37,046 bases of DNA from a virus: positions 1 to 37,046 of IMG/VR virus record IMGVR_UViG_3300008448_000275; one strand, written 5' to 3'. The position numbers were made by a program, and so were the translations under genes. This document shows, one piece after another, positions 114 through 37,046 of this stretch. Positions within the stretch are counted from its first letter, which is position 1, and each line of letters opens with the position of its first letter. Below the pieces are notes generated by a model, which was given only the letters and a program-made list of their open reading frames with translations, did not search any database and was not told the DNA's origin.

Positions 114-302
114 GCCGTAGCCGCCGCCCTTGGAATTGAAGCCAAAGCCAAAGCATCCGAAGGCGGCGCAATCGTGCTGGTGCATCGCACCGATAGTGGA
201 GATTTGCTCCACATCCGCGCAAGCAAAGTTGGCGAAAACGGAATCAAACCCGATGTTTGGTACTCGCTGGATGAGTCTGGCGCATTTGTGGAGGTGGAGT
301 GA
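1..302 (+). CDS. Phage repeat protein, C-terminal part (start lies at 36541)
   Basis: In the frame with codons beginning at position 3, the first 113 bases encode the last units of the ANAATTG-x-x repeat, then a C-terminal domain of about 60 residues. This domain includes the segment GGAIVLVHRTDSGDLL and the motif VGENGIKPDVWY, typical of phage proteins of the DUF7666 type. The stop is TGA at 300-302, overlapping by one base the ATG of the next gene. Joining window end to window start directly would put this part out of frame with the N-terminal part. At least 14 bases, plus any number of whole 27-bp units, are needed to join them. The gene is intact in principle but its repeat number is undetermined. 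Confidence 0.85.
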   Translation, partial: WANAATTGEGANAATTGDWANAATTGDWANAATTGKHAVAAALGIEAKAKASEGGAIVLVHRTDSGDLLHIRASKVGENGIKPDVWYSLDESGAFVEVE

Positions 303-670
303 TGCACTTAGACGCAATCGAACACGCCGACGAGATTGGCGCAATGCAAGACAGCTTGCTAGCTCGGCAGATCAAGGCTGAGAAACAGGCAGAAAGCGAA
401 ATCCGCGAACTGCTCACAAAGACAGTGCGCAAGGTTGACCCGAAGCGCTTAAGCCTGCCCTTCCCAATCGTGCGCAATGGTGGATTGGTCATCGCTGCTC
501 TGGATATGGATGAAGCCATTGCAGACACGGTTAGCTCAGGCAAGCCGCTAGACGCGCTTTTGGCTGTGTTTGCGAATAGCGAATGCCCACACGTTGCTGC
601 TCTGCGTGAAGCTGTAGCGGCTGATTACATCCGCAGAAATGCGGCAGAGATTGGAGAGGCAACCACATGA
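302..670 (+). CDS. Hypothetical phage protein (122 aa)
   Basis: I do not recognise a family. The start ATG at 302 overlaps the stop of the repeat protein by one base (TGATG), indicating translational coupling, and the end overlaps the next gene in an ATGA. The first ~45 residues are charged and predicted helical (AEKQAESEIRELL). A short hydrophobic-rich middle follows (IVRNGGLVIAALDMDEA), then a helical C-terminus. There is no signal peptide or membrane segment. It is part of a tightly packed early operon, so it is likely a real accessory early gene. Confidence 0.75.
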   Translation: MHLDAIEHADEIGAMQDSLLARQIKAEKQAESEIRELLTKTVRKVDPKRLSLPFPIVRNGGLVIAALDMDEAIADTVSSGKPLDALLAVFANSECPHVAALREAVAADYIRRNAAEIGEATT

Positions 671-9067: not shown

Positions 9068-9143
9068 CCGCTCCGCAGGCGTACACTGCACAACGAATCC
9101 AATGGGTTTGAATGCTGATTGAATGTACAGTTTTGCGGAGCGG
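9068..9143. repeat. Inverted repeat, possible integrase arm-type sites
   Basis: CCGCTCCGCA at 9068-9077 is repeated as its reverse complement TGCGGAGCGG at 9134-9143. A third copy, CGCTCCGCA, lies at 9277-9285 on the other side of the tRNA-like core. Sites flanking a core on both sides in this way fit arm-type binding sites for the integrase N-terminal domain. That role is inferred only. Confidence 0.45.
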
Positions 9144-33433: not shown

Positions 33434-33805
33434 TTAAGCGGCCTTTTTCAATGCCAACAGTTGCTGCTCCAGTTCGCGGATTTGCGCGTCCTTGGACTTG
33501 TCAACCAGATCGCAATTCAGTCGGTAGGCTTCAAACTGAGCGGGGGCGCGGTTGCCACACAAGGCCATCAAGTCCAAGCGCTTGTTGCTTGGAAAGTTGC
33601 CACGGCCTTTACGCAAACGGGAGAAATGGCCCTTGTCGATTCCCAAGGCTTCGCGGATTGCTTCGTCGCTCAGGTTGGACAGATTCATGCAGAGATTCAG
33701 GGCGGCAAGTTCATCCTTGCAATGCTTGATTAGCTCGGCAGGCACATCCTCTGGGCGGCGCATTTCTGCCATCAAAGGCATCTCACGTTGCGAATAGTTG
33801 CTCAT
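33434..33805 (-). CDS. CII-like transcription regulator (123 aa)
   Basis: The ATG at 33805 was chosen: it lies at the end of a tandem 10-base repeat and just downstream of cro. Residues ~45-75 form a helix-turn-helix (SDEAIREALGIDKGHFSRLR). The C-terminal ~30 residues are a leucine-zipper-like helix (IRELEQQLLALKKAA), which suggests oligomerisation as in CII. Second gene of the PR operon, the same place as lambda cII. Similarity is one of pattern, not close sequence. Confidence 0.7.
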   Translation of the reverse strand: MSNYSQREMPLMAEMRRPEDVPAELIKHCKDELAALNLCMNLSNLSDEAIREALGIDKGHFSRLRKGRGNFPSNKRLDLMALCGNRAPAQFEAYRLNCDLVDKSKDAQIRELEQQLLALKKAA

Positions 33806-33866: not shown

Positions 33867-34121
33867 TCACGCCTTAGCTGTCTCCTTCTTGTGTTTCTTG
33901 GCCAACTCGGGCCAGACAATCTGCCAATCAGCAGGGCACAGGCTTTGGCGCGTAACACGGCGCTTGCTGTGCTTTTCGAGTGCAGCGGCCAACTTGTGGT
34001 CGCAGGGTTTGCACCCGTAACTGACGTTTTTGATGTGGCCGAGCGAGAAACCGCACTTGGCAGCAAGCGTGTTGCGCTCTGCTTCGCTCAGCTCGGAGAG
34101 ATAGGTTTTAAGTTCTTCCAT
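33867..34121 (-). CDS. cro: YdaS/Cro-like early repressor (84 aa)
   Basis: The protein begins MEELKTYLSELSEAERNTLA and has a helix-turn-helix at about 17-50 (LAAKCGFSLGHIKNVSYG, then KLAAALEKHSK), as in YdaS-type Cro proteins. It is the first gene of the right operon and is divergent from the cI-like gene. Only six bases separate the -10 box of PR from the ATG, so the mRNA is predicted to be leaderless and there is no Shine-Dalgarno. It should lower PR/PL and cI expression during the lytic cycle. Confidence 0.82.
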   Translation of the reverse strand: MEELKTYLSELSEAERNTLAAKCGFSLGHIKNVSYGCKPCDHKLAAALEKHSKRRVTRQSLCPADWQIVWPELAKKHKKETAKA

Positions 34122-34127
34122 GCCCGC

Positions 34128-34156
34128 ATTACATCAAATAGTGTGCTGCGTGTCAA
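34128..34156 (-). promoter_or_regulatory. PR promoter with operators for cro / early-right operon
   Basis: On the minus strand: TTGACA (34156-34151), exactly 17 bases, TGTAAT (34133-34128). It is a near-consensus sigma-70 promoter. Operator B overlaps the -35 and operator A overlaps the -10. The predicted start is the A of the cro ATG. Confidence 0.88.
34131..34144. promoter_or_regulatory. Operator A (O_R)
   Basis: ACATCAAATAGTGT, identical to the operator at 36013-36026, and covering the -10 of PR. Weakly palindromic (ACAYY...RTGT ends). Target of the cI-like or Cro-like protein by position. Confidence 0.75.
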
Positions 34157-34192: not shown

Positions 34193-34585
34193 ATGGCAAA
34201 AACTCAAGACCCAAACACCGAATTGCGGCGCGCGGCATTCCGCGCTTACTGCGAATCAAAGGGCTGGAAAAACGATGATGGAACGTGGGCGAGTGTTGAA
34301 ATTGGCAAGCACTTCGATAGGAAGTCCAACCAGATCAACAACATTCTGTACGGGCATGGCTCGTTCGGCCCTACAGTGGCAAGTGCCCTCGCATCGTATG
34401 CAGGCCTAAGTGAAGGCTACTTCGAGCCAGGCGGGGCTTCTGGTGGTTTGTCGCCGGTCGCCTATGAGCTGGGTCGGACCTTCGACAACTTTGGCTTTGA
34501 TGACGAGGACGGAACCGAGAACGCTGCGTTCAATGCAGCAGTAGCTGCGCTGGTTAAATTTTTGCCACCGCGCTCTGCCAGCTAA
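34193..34585 (+). CDS. cI: CI-like repressor, HTH domain only (no S24 peptidase)
   Basis: The 130-residue protein has a helix-turn-helix at about 30-65 (WASVEIGKHFDRKSNQINNI, then GSFGPTVASALASYAGLSEG), of lambda-repressor style. The C-terminal ~55 residues are acidic (FDNFGFDDEDGTENAAFNAA). There is no S24 Ser-Lys autoproteolysis domain and no Ala-Gly cleavage site region of the usual kind, so RecA-stimulated self-cleavage is not expected. It is divergent from cro across the operators. No good Shine-Dalgarno lies close to the ATG; a weak PRM could make a leaderless mRNA. Confidence 0.78.
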   Translation: MAKTQDPNTELRRAAFRAYCESKGWKNDDGTWASVEIGKHFDRKSNQINNILYGHGSFGPTVASALASYAGLSEGYFEPGGASGGLSPVAYELGRTFDNFGFDDEDGTENAAFNAAVAALVKFLPPRSAS

Positions 34586-34733
34586 GCATCTGCGCAGTTG
34601 TGGGGAAGATGATGTACCGCCGCTTCTCTTTTTCAAGCTCTGACACTCTCAGAGTCAAAGCCTCCGGCTGCATTGCTTCTTGTGAAAGCGCAACAGTCTC
34701 CCCCTTCTCCATCTTGTATACATTAAATTGCAT
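34554..34733 (-). CDS. SOS-controlled small protein convergent to cI (59 aa), candidate antirepressor
   Basis: The start ATG is at 34733 with AGAGGG five bases upstream. The 59-residue product begins MQFNVYKMEKGETVALSQEA. It has a heptad-like helix (ALTLRVSELEKEKRRY) and ends with a hydrophobic IIFPTTAQMLSWQSAVAKI. A perfect CTGT-N8-ACAG LexA-type box (34749-34764) overlaps its -10 region (TATAAA). The gene is convergent with cI and overlaps its 3' end by 32 bases. The family is not recognised. By analogy with LexA-controlled antirepressors (Tum of phage 186, Ant of Gifsy phages) it may inactivate the repressor; that function is inference. Confidence 0.72.
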   Translation of the reverse strand: MQFNVYKMEKGETVALSQEAMQPEALTLRVSELEKEKRRYIIFPTTAQMLSWQSAVAKI

Positions 34734-34748
34734 TTTTCCCTCTTGATG

Positions 34749-34764
34749 CTGTGTATTTATACAG
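34749..34764. promoter_or_regulatory. LexA-type SOS box 1
   Basis: CTGTGTATTTATACAG reads CTGT-N8-ACAG; the flanking G and C extend the symmetry. It sits 15 bases upstream of the ATG of the 59-residue gene and covers its TATAAA -10 element, so LexA binding would shut the gene off. Confidence 0.85.
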
Positions 34765-34796
34765 CCTTTGAGGGGTGCCGTGTTGTCTCTTTGGTT
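34764..34796 (-). repeat. Upstream element copy 1 (shared with 35942-35969)
   Basis: Minus-strand element with core AGAGACAAC-x-CG and ending AGGC, located just upstream of LexA box 1. A copy lies the same distance (about 31 bases) from the start codon of the lipoprotein gene at 35512-35910. It is likely a shared promoter region derived by duplication. Confidence 0.5.
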
Positions 34797-34989
34797 CCAT
34801 TTTGAAAATCACAAAAATCGTTTCGACGTCTATCGTTTTGAATAAATGCTGTAAGCAAACACAGTAGAAGTGTTACAAAATTTACAAATAAGGGTAATCC
34901 CCCAAACGGGTGAATTTGACCGAAAGGACAACTAACTAGAGCTGTAAAGGCCGGTGTCGCTGGATTAACCAACTTATAGGGACTAGGAA
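34765..34989. other. Intergenic region between the SOS gene and first lipoprotein
   Basis: About 225 bases without a convincing ORF. It holds LexA box 2, AT-rich promoter-like stretches (TTTTGAATAAAT at 34836-34847; TTACAA...TAATCC around 34873-34900), and the leader of the lipoprotein gene. No terminator is seen. Confidence 0.6.
34849..34864. promoter_or_regulatory. LexA-type SOS box 2
   Basis: CTGTAAGCAAACACAG also reads CTGT-N8-ACAG; its start is exactly 100 bases from the start of box 1. Its centre is less AT-rich, so binding may be weaker. It could control the lipoprotein gene at 34990 (+) or act with box 1. Confidence 0.6.
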
Positions 34990-35460
34990 ATGAAATTTTT
35001 AACAACAGTGGCCGCGCTTGGCCTGTCAGCAGTCGTATCCGGCTGCGCAACCGTAGACACCAACGCCCAAAAAGAACTGGTGCAAGTTCACGACTTTGCC
35101 GGTAAAACAAAGGCGCAGATATGCGGCGCGGCCCGTGACTGGGTGGCGCTCAACTTCAAGGATTCAAAGGCGGTGGTCGAGGTCTATGACTTGGAGCGCG
35201 GCAAGCTGATCGGCAAGGGCAATATGACCCTTATGGGATTCGCTGGCACTCCGCAGCGCATTGGATTTACCATGACAGCAGATTGCAAGGATGGAAAATT
35301 CCGGTCGGCTTGGGGCGACTTTACGGGGAGCTATCAAGGCAACACCTACCCACTCAGGGAGGATTCTATGAATAAGCTGCTGTCTAGCTCGATCGCGGAA
35401 GCCAAGCGGATGGACGCAAGCATGACCGCCTACATCGCAAGCGGGGCGAAGGACTTTTAA
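34990..35460 (+). CDS. Outer-membrane or inner-membrane lipoprotein (156 aa)
   Basis: Residues 1-19 are a lipoprotein signal (MKFLTTVAALGLSAVVSGC) with lipobox VSGC, Cys19 being lipidated. The mature part (DFAGKTKAQICGAARDWVAL, VYDLERGKLIGKGNMTLMG, FTMTADCKDGKFRSAWGDFT) has the look of a DUF4468 / TBP-like fold domain. TATAGGGACTAGGAA precedes the ATG. It lies between cI and PL, where lysogeny-expressed genes such as rex lie in lambda; it may serve in superinfection exclusion or change the host surface. An intrinsic terminator follows. Confidence 0.8.
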   Translation: MKFLTTVAALGLSAVVSGCATVDTNAQKELVQVHDFAGKTKAQICGAARDWVALNFKDSKAVVEVYDLERGKLIGKGNMTLMGFAGTPQRIGFTMTADCKDGKFRSAWGDFTGSYQGNTYPLREDSMNKLLSSSIAEAKRMDASMTAYIASGAKDF

Positions 35461-35511: not shown

Positions 35512-35910
35512 TTACTTCACCGCGCCTGGCTCTGCGCTTTCCATTGCAGCCGGTGCCGCGCCGCTTCTTGTGCCGGTCCCGCTTGTCGAGTAGGTAATTT
35601 TCTCAAGCACGCCATTCGCGCCGATTTGGTACATCGCCATCGACATGGTGTAGTCAGCCCCGCCAGCAAATGCGCCAACTATCGGGATGAACGTTGCGCC
35701 CTTGACTTGGTATTGCATGCCGCTGTAGCTGATGAACTTCATGCCGCTGGCAATGGATACCGATGTGGGTTTGCCCAGCTTGGCAATGATTTGAGCCTCG
35801 GTAGTCTCACCCTCCTTGAATTGAAGCGCTGCCGCCTCGCTCACCTGTGTGCCTGATGCTGCACACCCGCCCAAAAGTGCTGCCGCCAGCAACGTGATTG
35901 CAATTTTCAT
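35512..35910 (-). CDS. SmpA/BamE-like lipoprotein (132 aa)
   Basis: Residues 1-16 form a lipoprotein signal (MKIAITLLAAALLGGC) with Cys16 lipidated. The mature start FKEGETTEAQIIAKLGKPTS is the conserved helix-turn of SmpA/OmlA (BamE-like) domains. KFISYSGMQYQVKG is the following strand, and a Gly-rich segment with hydrophobic stretch (FIPIVGAFAGGADYTM) comes next. AGGGG precedes the ATG. Likely expressed in the lysogen; a phage lipoprotein of BamE fold could alter outer-membrane receptors or assembly, but this is inference. Confidence 0.8.
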   Translation of the reverse strand: MKIAITLLAAALLGGCAASGTQVSEAAALQFKEGETTEAQIIAKLGKPTSVSIASGMKFISYSGMQYQVKGATFIPIVGAFAGGADYTMSMAMYQIGANGVLEKITYSTSGTGTRSGAAPAAMESAEPGAVK

Positions 35911-36012: not shown

Positions 36013-36026
36013 ACATCAAATAGTGT
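36013..36026. promoter_or_regulatory. Operator C (O_L)
   Basis: ACATCAAATAGTGT, identical to operator A of the right operator. It overlaps the -35 of PL. Confidence 0.75.
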
Positions 36027-36054
36027 TGACAAGAAATACACCGTTTGATGTAAT
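36026..36054 (+). promoter_or_regulatory. PL promoter of the early-left operon
   Basis: TTGACA (36026-36031), 17 bases, TGTAAT (36049-36054): same hexamers and same spacer length as PR. Operators C and D overlap the -35 and -10. The predicted start is the A of an ATG at 36061. Confidence 0.9.
36038..36051. promoter_or_regulatory. Operator D (O_L)
   Basis: ACACCGTTTGATGT, reverse complement ACATCAAACGGTGT; its centre is 25 bases from operator C, the same spacing as at PR. Overlaps the -10 of PL. Confidence 0.75.
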
Positions 36055-36060
36055 ACATCC

Positions 36061-36135
36061 ATGCCGCAAACAAAGCGGAGCAGCAAAGGGCAAGCCCCAA
36101 CGCAAGCAGCTACCACGGCTGGAAACATGGAATAG
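36061..36135 (+). CDS. Possible leaderless 24-residue basic peptide
   Basis: The ATG falls at the predicted +1 of PL, six bases after the -10, exactly as for cro. The peptide (MPQTKRSSKGQAPTQAATTA plus GNME) is basic at its N-terminus. It could be a short N-like RNA-binding peptide or merely a relic of the duplicated PR-cro start. A second frame over the same leader also encodes an Arg/Lys-rich stretch (KGKPQRKQLPRLE) but has no ATG near its start. Confidence 0.35.
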   Translation: MPQTKRSSKGQAPTQAATTAGNME

Positions 36136-36527: not shown

Positions 36528-36540
36528 CAAGGAGCAACGA

Positions 36541-37046
36541 ATGACACAACCAGCAATCACAAACAACCTTCAGATCACAAAAGAGCGCGTTAAAGAGTGG
36601 GAAGCATGCGCCAGTGGATACCGCTGGTTTCTAGAGAAATTTCCTCAAGGCGGCGAGTTCGCTGAGGTCTACACGGCCCTACAAGCTGACAAACGTTACG
36701 ACGATTCGGGCTGGCTGTCTGACAAGGTGTTTGCCGAGCTTGATACCCCATTCTCGGTGCGTCAAACCGTGCTGATTAGCGGCGCAGATACAGCCAAGAT
36801 TGAAAAGTCTGTGGCTGATGGCGCAAACGCTGCGACCACTGGCGACTGGGCAAACGCTGCGACCACTGGCGAAGGGGCAAACGCTGCGACCACTGGCTAC
36901 AGGGCAAACGCTGCGACCACTGGCTACAGGGCAAACGCTGCGACCACTGGCAACTGGGCAAACGCTGCGACCACTGGCGAAGGGGCAAACGCTGCGACCA
37001 CTGGCGACTGGGCAAACGCTGCGACCACTGGCGAAGGGGCAAACGC
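36541..37046 (+). CDS. Phage repeat protein, N-terminal part (runs off the window; continues at 1-302)
   Basis: The reading frame starts at an ATG preceded by AAGGAG with good spacing and stays open to the window end. The first ~94 residues are a non-repetitive N-terminal domain. From 36823 the frame enters tandem 9-residue repeats ANAATTG-x-x, where the last two residues are DW, EG, YR or NW. The C-terminal part lies at 1-302. Phage proteins with 9-residue TTG/NTG-type repeats followed by a compact VGxNGIKxDxWY domain (I recall it as DUF7666) are common, but their function is unknown to me. It is the second recognisable gene of the PL operon and sits just after a terminator. The repeats suggest a solenoid; that is inference. 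Confidence 0.85.
   Translation, partial: MTQPAITNNLQITKERVKEWEACASGYRWFLEKFPQGGEFAEVYTALQADKRYDDSGWLSDKVFAELDTPFSVRQTVLISGADTAKIEKSVADGANAATTGDWANAATTGEGANAATTGYRANAATTGYRANAATTGNWANAATTGEGANAATTGDWANAATTGEGAN
36823..37046 (+). repeat. 27-bp tandem repeat array, right part
   Basis: Eight full 27-bp units begin at 36823, 36850, 36877, 36904, 36931, 36958, 36985 and 37012, with a partial ninth at 37039. Twenty-one bases of each unit are invariant (GCAAACGCTGCGACCACTGGC plus or minus the edge base) and only the last two codons vary: GACTGG, GAAGGG, TACAGG, AACTGG. The array is in frame and encodes the 9-residue protein repeat. Confidence 0.97.

Follow-up and report, generated by a model that had tools for sequence, protein, structure and literature searches.

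A candidate LexA-controlled antirepressor gene convergent on a peptidase-less cI-like repressor in a lambda-like phage immunity region

Organization of the immunity region

The window (the whole stretch of viral DNA analyzed here, 37,046 nucleotides, IMG/VR record IMGVR_UViG_3300008448_000275) carries a cI-like repressor gene, a divergent cro-like gene, and a small open reading frame (ORF) that converges on cI. A matching locus occurs in two more viral contigs, L001 and L002, whose sequences do not differ from each other in that region. The repressor, its early genes, and the proposed control sites are as follows (position in the window, strand where one applies):

33434..33805 (-), cII-position helix-turn-helix (HTH) protein of the early right operon (phrog_4441, HTH DNA-binding protein, E 0.001)
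33867..34121 (-), Cro-like HTH protein, 84 aa (phrog_35, transcriptional repressor, E 7e-8; weak YdaS match)
34128..34156 (-), PR-like promoter for cro, TTGACA-N17-TGTAAT, within the operator; same in L002
34131..34170, OR-like inverted operator pair between cI and cro (0 expected in shuffles)
34193..34585 (+), CI-like repressor, 130 aa, lacking the S24 peptidase; transcribed away from cro, with the operator in between
36013..36052, OL-like second copy of the operator pair (0 expected in shuffles)
36026..36054 (+), PL-like promoter, TTGACA-N17-TGTAAT, facing the right end of the record; same in L002

Both operator pairs have the inverted form ACATCAAATAGTGT-N11-ACACCATTTGATGTA, and each overlaps its promoter, which points to cro in the first case and to the other early operon in the second. 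The genes on the cro side encode Cro, the cII-position HTH protein, O/P-like replication proteins, NinB, and NinG, and those on the opposite side encode RecT, an exonuclease, RdgC, Xis (excisionase), and Int (integrase). Gene content and sites together make this a lambda-like immunity region, in which two operator pairs cover early promoters. As in lambda (OL-rex-cI-OR-cro), two operator regions with early promoters flank the immunity module, and the gene content is similar; unlike in lambda, the repressor has no S24 domain, and the rex position is taken by lipoprotein genes and the gene predicted here to be under LexA control. The closest RdgC relatives among plasmid records are from Acidovorax and Variovorax, making a Burkholderiales host a reasonable inference.

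The rex position holds two lipoprotein-like genes (34990-35460 and 35512-35910), which resemble, respectively, DUF4468 proteins (phrog_4002) and phrog_3135, the latter with a weak match to the Cor superinfection-exclusion protein. L001 has another lipoprotein-like gene in the first of these two slots. Cro begins about 7 bases past the PR -10 (34121-34135), and a short basic frame (MPQTKRSSKG...) begins at 36061, about 7 bases past the PL -10 (36049-36063), with a similar frame in L002 at 7944; given these start positions, both the PR and PL messages may be leaderless. In L002, a homolog of window positions 302-654 directly follows a repeat-rich gene placed like the repeats at the right end of the window, and from this gene order the window looks circularly permuted and broken within repeats (36540-37046 joined to 1-670).

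The CI-like protein is 82% identical between the window and L001 and has a weak match to a transcriptional-regulator family (phrog_5736, E 0.07); its AlphaFold model (pLDDT 46) is too poor for use. The first-pass annotation described a 130-aa repressor without an S24 domain, and indeed no S24 peptidase was found in CI, which thus differs from self-cleaving lambda-type CI, or anywhere else in the record. The full records of L001, L002, and the related phage L021 (described below) also lack S24. Further, the window record has no gene for Peptidase_M78 (PF06114), as would be found with an ImmA-type protease, and the DinI domain (PF06183) is absent from the small protein and the whole record, placing the small protein outside the Tum/DinI family. 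The repressor therefore has no visible means of self-cleavage. A comparison of S24 with LexA boxes across 43 records was set aside because many of these records are fragments.

The small convergent gene and its predicted LexA sites

On the far side of cI lies the small ORF with its upstream elements:

34554..34733 (-), 59-aa ORF, proposed LexA-controlled antirepressor (conserved length and overlap, dN/dS about 0.12, no significant family match)
34554..34585, 32 bases shared by cI and the small ORF at their 3' ends (32 bases in L001, 26 in L021)
34738..34743 (-), AGAGGG, ribosome-binding site of the small ORF
34749..34764 (-), proximal LexA box (box 1), CTGTATAAATACACAG, a perfect CTGT-N8-ACAG that holds the TATAAA -10 of the small ORF; perfect also in L001 and L021
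34849..34864, distal LexA box (box 2), CTGTAAGCAAACACAG, a perfect CTGT-N8-ACAG exactly 100 bases from the proximal box

These coordinates bear out the layout given in the first-pass annotation: a 59-aa ORF pointing at cI and overlapping its 3' end by 32 bases, a ribosome site (34743-34738), a TATAAA (34761-34756) inside a perfect box (34764-34749), and a second box 100 bases away. In the direction of the ORF, the order is box 2 (34864-34849), box 1, AGAGGG, and the ATG at 34733, 15 bases past box 1; no good -35 is visible.

The annotation had also proposed looking for the ORF and box beside cI in related prophages, and both the small ORF and the proximal box are kept next to cI. The L001 ORF matches that of the window in length, start, stop, overlap, and distance from box 1 to the ATG (15 bases), with 68% amino acid identity. 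Outside the overlap, differences fall 12/6/24 across the three codon positions (dN 0.21, dS 1.72, dN/dS about 0.12). When the substitutions between the window and L001 were relocated at random in 20,000 trials, a stop was created in 69% of them, and the 34 of 49 residues conserved in the actual pair exceeded both the mean (22.7) and the maximum (31) of this null. By these comparisons the small ORF is a real gene under purifying selection: its length, start, stop, and overlap persist in a second phage lineage, with a low dN/dS.

The protein itself has no detected relatives beyond this group. Searches of Pfam, PHROGs, and NCBIfam returned insignificant matches only, and no relative was found in phage or plasmid collections. 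A tblastn search of 50,697 phage records, a collection that may lack Gifsy, gave no match at E<=1; two viral scans and one genome scan recovered at most L001/L002, and the back-translated core RRYI(I/V)FPT recovered nothing. An AlphaFold model (pLDDT 75.5) has two strands and two helices, and a fold search with it gave no match below E 0.7. A DinI-like order of these elements was considered and rejected, as DinI was not found. An Rfam search of the region had no matches.

The two boxes are the only perfect CTGT-N8-ACAG sites in the 37-kb record. This motif has been reported in most beta- and gamma-proteobacteria (PMC3323433); judged by base count, a 37-kb sequence should contain about 0.5 site of the bare 8-base pattern, and on the pattern alone two perfect sites are weak evidence. 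With a 20-bp LexA matrix built from E. coli sites, the motif of the host LexA being presumed, box 1 scores 19.7 bits and box 2 17.3 bits, within the 13.6-26.1 range of known sites. Under a Markov null, 0.007 sites of at least 17 bits are expected per window, and a close pair appeared in none of 300 simulated windows; the two strong predicted LexA sites are far beyond chance. The distal box has one mismatch to CTGT-N8-ACAG in each of L001 and L021, where it scores 18.3 and 16.7 bits, respectively.

The 100-base spacing between boxes and the 15-base gap from box 1 to the ATG are alike in the window, L001, and L021, and the constant spacing suggests a constraint on the distance itself. Between the boxes, the three phages differ by small indels, and the distance stays at exactly 100. 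Two other features were seen in the window: a third LexA-like site (9113-9132; 15.5 bits, one mismatch) just downstream of the integrase gene, and a 25-codon frame, MEPKRQH...AI (34730-34804, -), which spans the LexA box, is free of indels between the window and L001, and has no visible ribosome site. This frame is probably a by-product of constraint on the DNA.

Joint exchange of the small gene and the repressor in a related phage

Among 69 loci that share the replication protein and were scanned for LexA sites, L021 was singled out. It has the same upstream DNA, with its two boxes (24.0 bits for box 1, 16.7 for box 2) again separated by exactly 100 bases, followed by a different ORF of 55 aa (2006-2173) with a GGAGGG and a 15-base gap from box 1. 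This ORF converges on, and overlaps by 26 bases, a different repressor of 121 aa (2148-2513, -), which has only weak HTH matches. The operator also differs (TATCGAAACGATAGA, in two copies, at 341 and 2562). The segment common to the three phages is:

34734..34935, conserved promoter island of the window, L001, and L021, with different flanks on both sides (78% identity to L021, BLASTN)

Between L001 and L021 (1805-2001) the island is 88% identical; homology ends 5 bases before the small ORF and restarts inside cro (2758). In a three-way alignment, invariant columns make up 71% of the island up to box 1 vs. 30% of the ORF. Given these break points, the small ORF, cI, the operator, and the start of cro were exchanged as a single block, with the LexA promoter kept. 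Such a joint exchange favors a dedicated antirepressor, because a cognate pair predicts it and a generic SOS gene does not; its weight is limited, as the exchange was seen once and overlapping genes would in any case tend to travel together. When homology between the 55-aa and 59-aa proteins was tested, their similarity was not significant, so a shared role rests on position. Both small proteins read as soluble, not strongly acidic, and without a membrane segment. The isoelectric points of small protein and CI are 8.1/5.1 in one pair and 4.9/9.2 in the other, and the opposite predicted charges within pairs (n=2) are suggestive only.

The island (34785-34953, -; L001 6571-6757; L021 1804-1990) has additional invariant blocks beyond the LexA boxes, GATTTTTGTGATTTT..AAATGGAACCAAA and GGTCAAATTC..TGGGGGATTACC, and the gene modules on both of its sides differ among the window, L001, and L021. 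Matches to the island pattern in L076, L077, and L079 are attributable to chance, as they fall inside long coding genes of unrelated phages. LexA-like boxes occur in other related phages (regions L083-L085), in which the arrangement is absent; one of these (L083 2153-2168, in the record of L007; core CTGTATGCTCATACAG) directly precedes a 107-aa GTG-start ORF near lysis genes and far from the replication region.

Proposed induction mechanism and alternatives

The logic of a LexA-controlled antirepressor is already known. The Gifsy repressors GtgR/GfoR/GfhR (136 aa) do not undergo cleavage, and the small LexA-controlled antirepressors GftA/GfoA/GfhA bind them (Lemire et al., 2011, PMC3121763). 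The phage described here resembles these prophages in its short repressor without a cleavage domain (130 aa vs. 136 aa) and in its induction logic, with a small protein under LexA control that is direct in Gifsy and predicted here. The Gifsy gene is part of a dinI-antirepressor-irsA unit located outside the immunity region, whereas the window gene lies inside that region, flanked by cI and the OL-like operator, and runs toward cI with an overlap; there is no dinI in the window record, and no sequence relation was detected. Tum of coliphage 186 and AntC of N15 are also LexA-controlled antirepressors, as is proposed here, although Tum has 146 aa and a DinI-like second half (PMC3121763), and the present protein has 59 aa and no similarity to DinI. 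In the transcription factor-smORF modules of Silpe et al. (2023, PMC10432266), a tiny protein without homologs likewise sits beside a regulator, and CI inactivation by the smORF product, proposed here, was demonstrated. In those modules a phage transcription factor activates the divergent smORF independently of SOS, whereas the switch here is predicted to be host LexA and the small gene converges on cI; no transcription factor gene is divergent from the small ORF, and that side holds the DUF4468 relative.

We consider it likely that the SOS signal reaches the peptidase-less CI via a separate LexA-controlled antirepressor rather than via self-cleavage. In a lysogen, host LexA on the proximal box would cover the -10 of the small gene and keep it off, while CI would occupy OR and OL. 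Upon DNA damage, LexA would be cleaved and the 59-aa protein produced; the protein would bind its cognate CI and remove it from the operators, allowing PR and PL to fire, and convergent transcription across the 3' end of cI may reinforce this. LexA binding, binding of the small protein to CI and its outcome, and the dependence of induction on the gene are what we infer. For SOS derepression and CI inactivation the reading leans on analogy with the Gifsy prophages, and it is the best explanation of the locus. The SOS-antirepressor interpretation made in the first-pass annotation is supported at the level of sequence, by conservation of the ORF and box beside cI, by the missing peptidase, and by the replacement of ORF and cI together in L021.

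The small protein could instead be SOS-induced with another target (RecA or LexA activity, cell division, or host physiology), and merely be a neighbor of cI. Many phage SOS genes act in this way, including the DinI encoded beside the Gifsy antirepressor (PMC3121763), and the absence of a fold match for the small protein is compatible with such a role. This alternative is unlikely, since the ORF was swapped with cI while the promoter was kept, and a protein with a host target need not change with immunity type; moreover, the protein has no DinI match and no membrane segment, and a repressor without a peptidase needs another induction route.

A still less probable explanation is that the ORF is incidental and that CI levels drop when the LexA promoter drives antisense or convergent transcription into cI. 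The convergent, overlapping layout in three phages would suit this explanation, as would the result of a simple scan, in which no intrinsic terminator was seen between the small ORF and cI. However, the protein is under purifying selection, its start, Shine-Dalgarno sequence, and overlap are conserved, a second, different ORF occupies the same place in L021, and CI already present would need to be diluted. Given the selection on the protein, antisense transcription would not be the whole mechanism, although it could have a helper role. Finally, it is very improbable that the small protein stabilizes lysogeny or damps induction, as do 434 Hex, whose ORF overlaps the repressor gene and which prevents repressor cleavage (PMC3564112), and GIL01 gp7, which strengthens LexA binding (PMC4551915), because the window CI lacks a cleavage domain that would need protection and expression of the small gene is expected only when LexA falls.

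Relative to the known systems, the antirepressor reading adds a site inside the immunity region, a tail-to-tail overlap with cI, a double LexA site at fixed spacing, a 59-aa protein without a detected relative, and joint exchange with cI; this arrangement was not described in the available portions of the papers found by literature search. More tentatively, the repressor and its dedicated antirepressor might form a single exchangeable immunity cassette, a matched pair locked by the overlap, passed between phages and placed behind a fixed two-site LexA island, in which the repressor would be the target of the small protein and of antisense transcription alike. For many phage repressors, short length precludes self-cleavage, and the way the corresponding prophages sense DNA damage is mostly obscure. 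Unannotated antirepressors could be sought with a simple rule drawn from this locus, namely a peptidase-less cI whose end is overlapped by a small ORF, with a LexA box 15 bases ahead of that ORF, and the matched exchange yields natural pairs for the study of antirepressor specificity.
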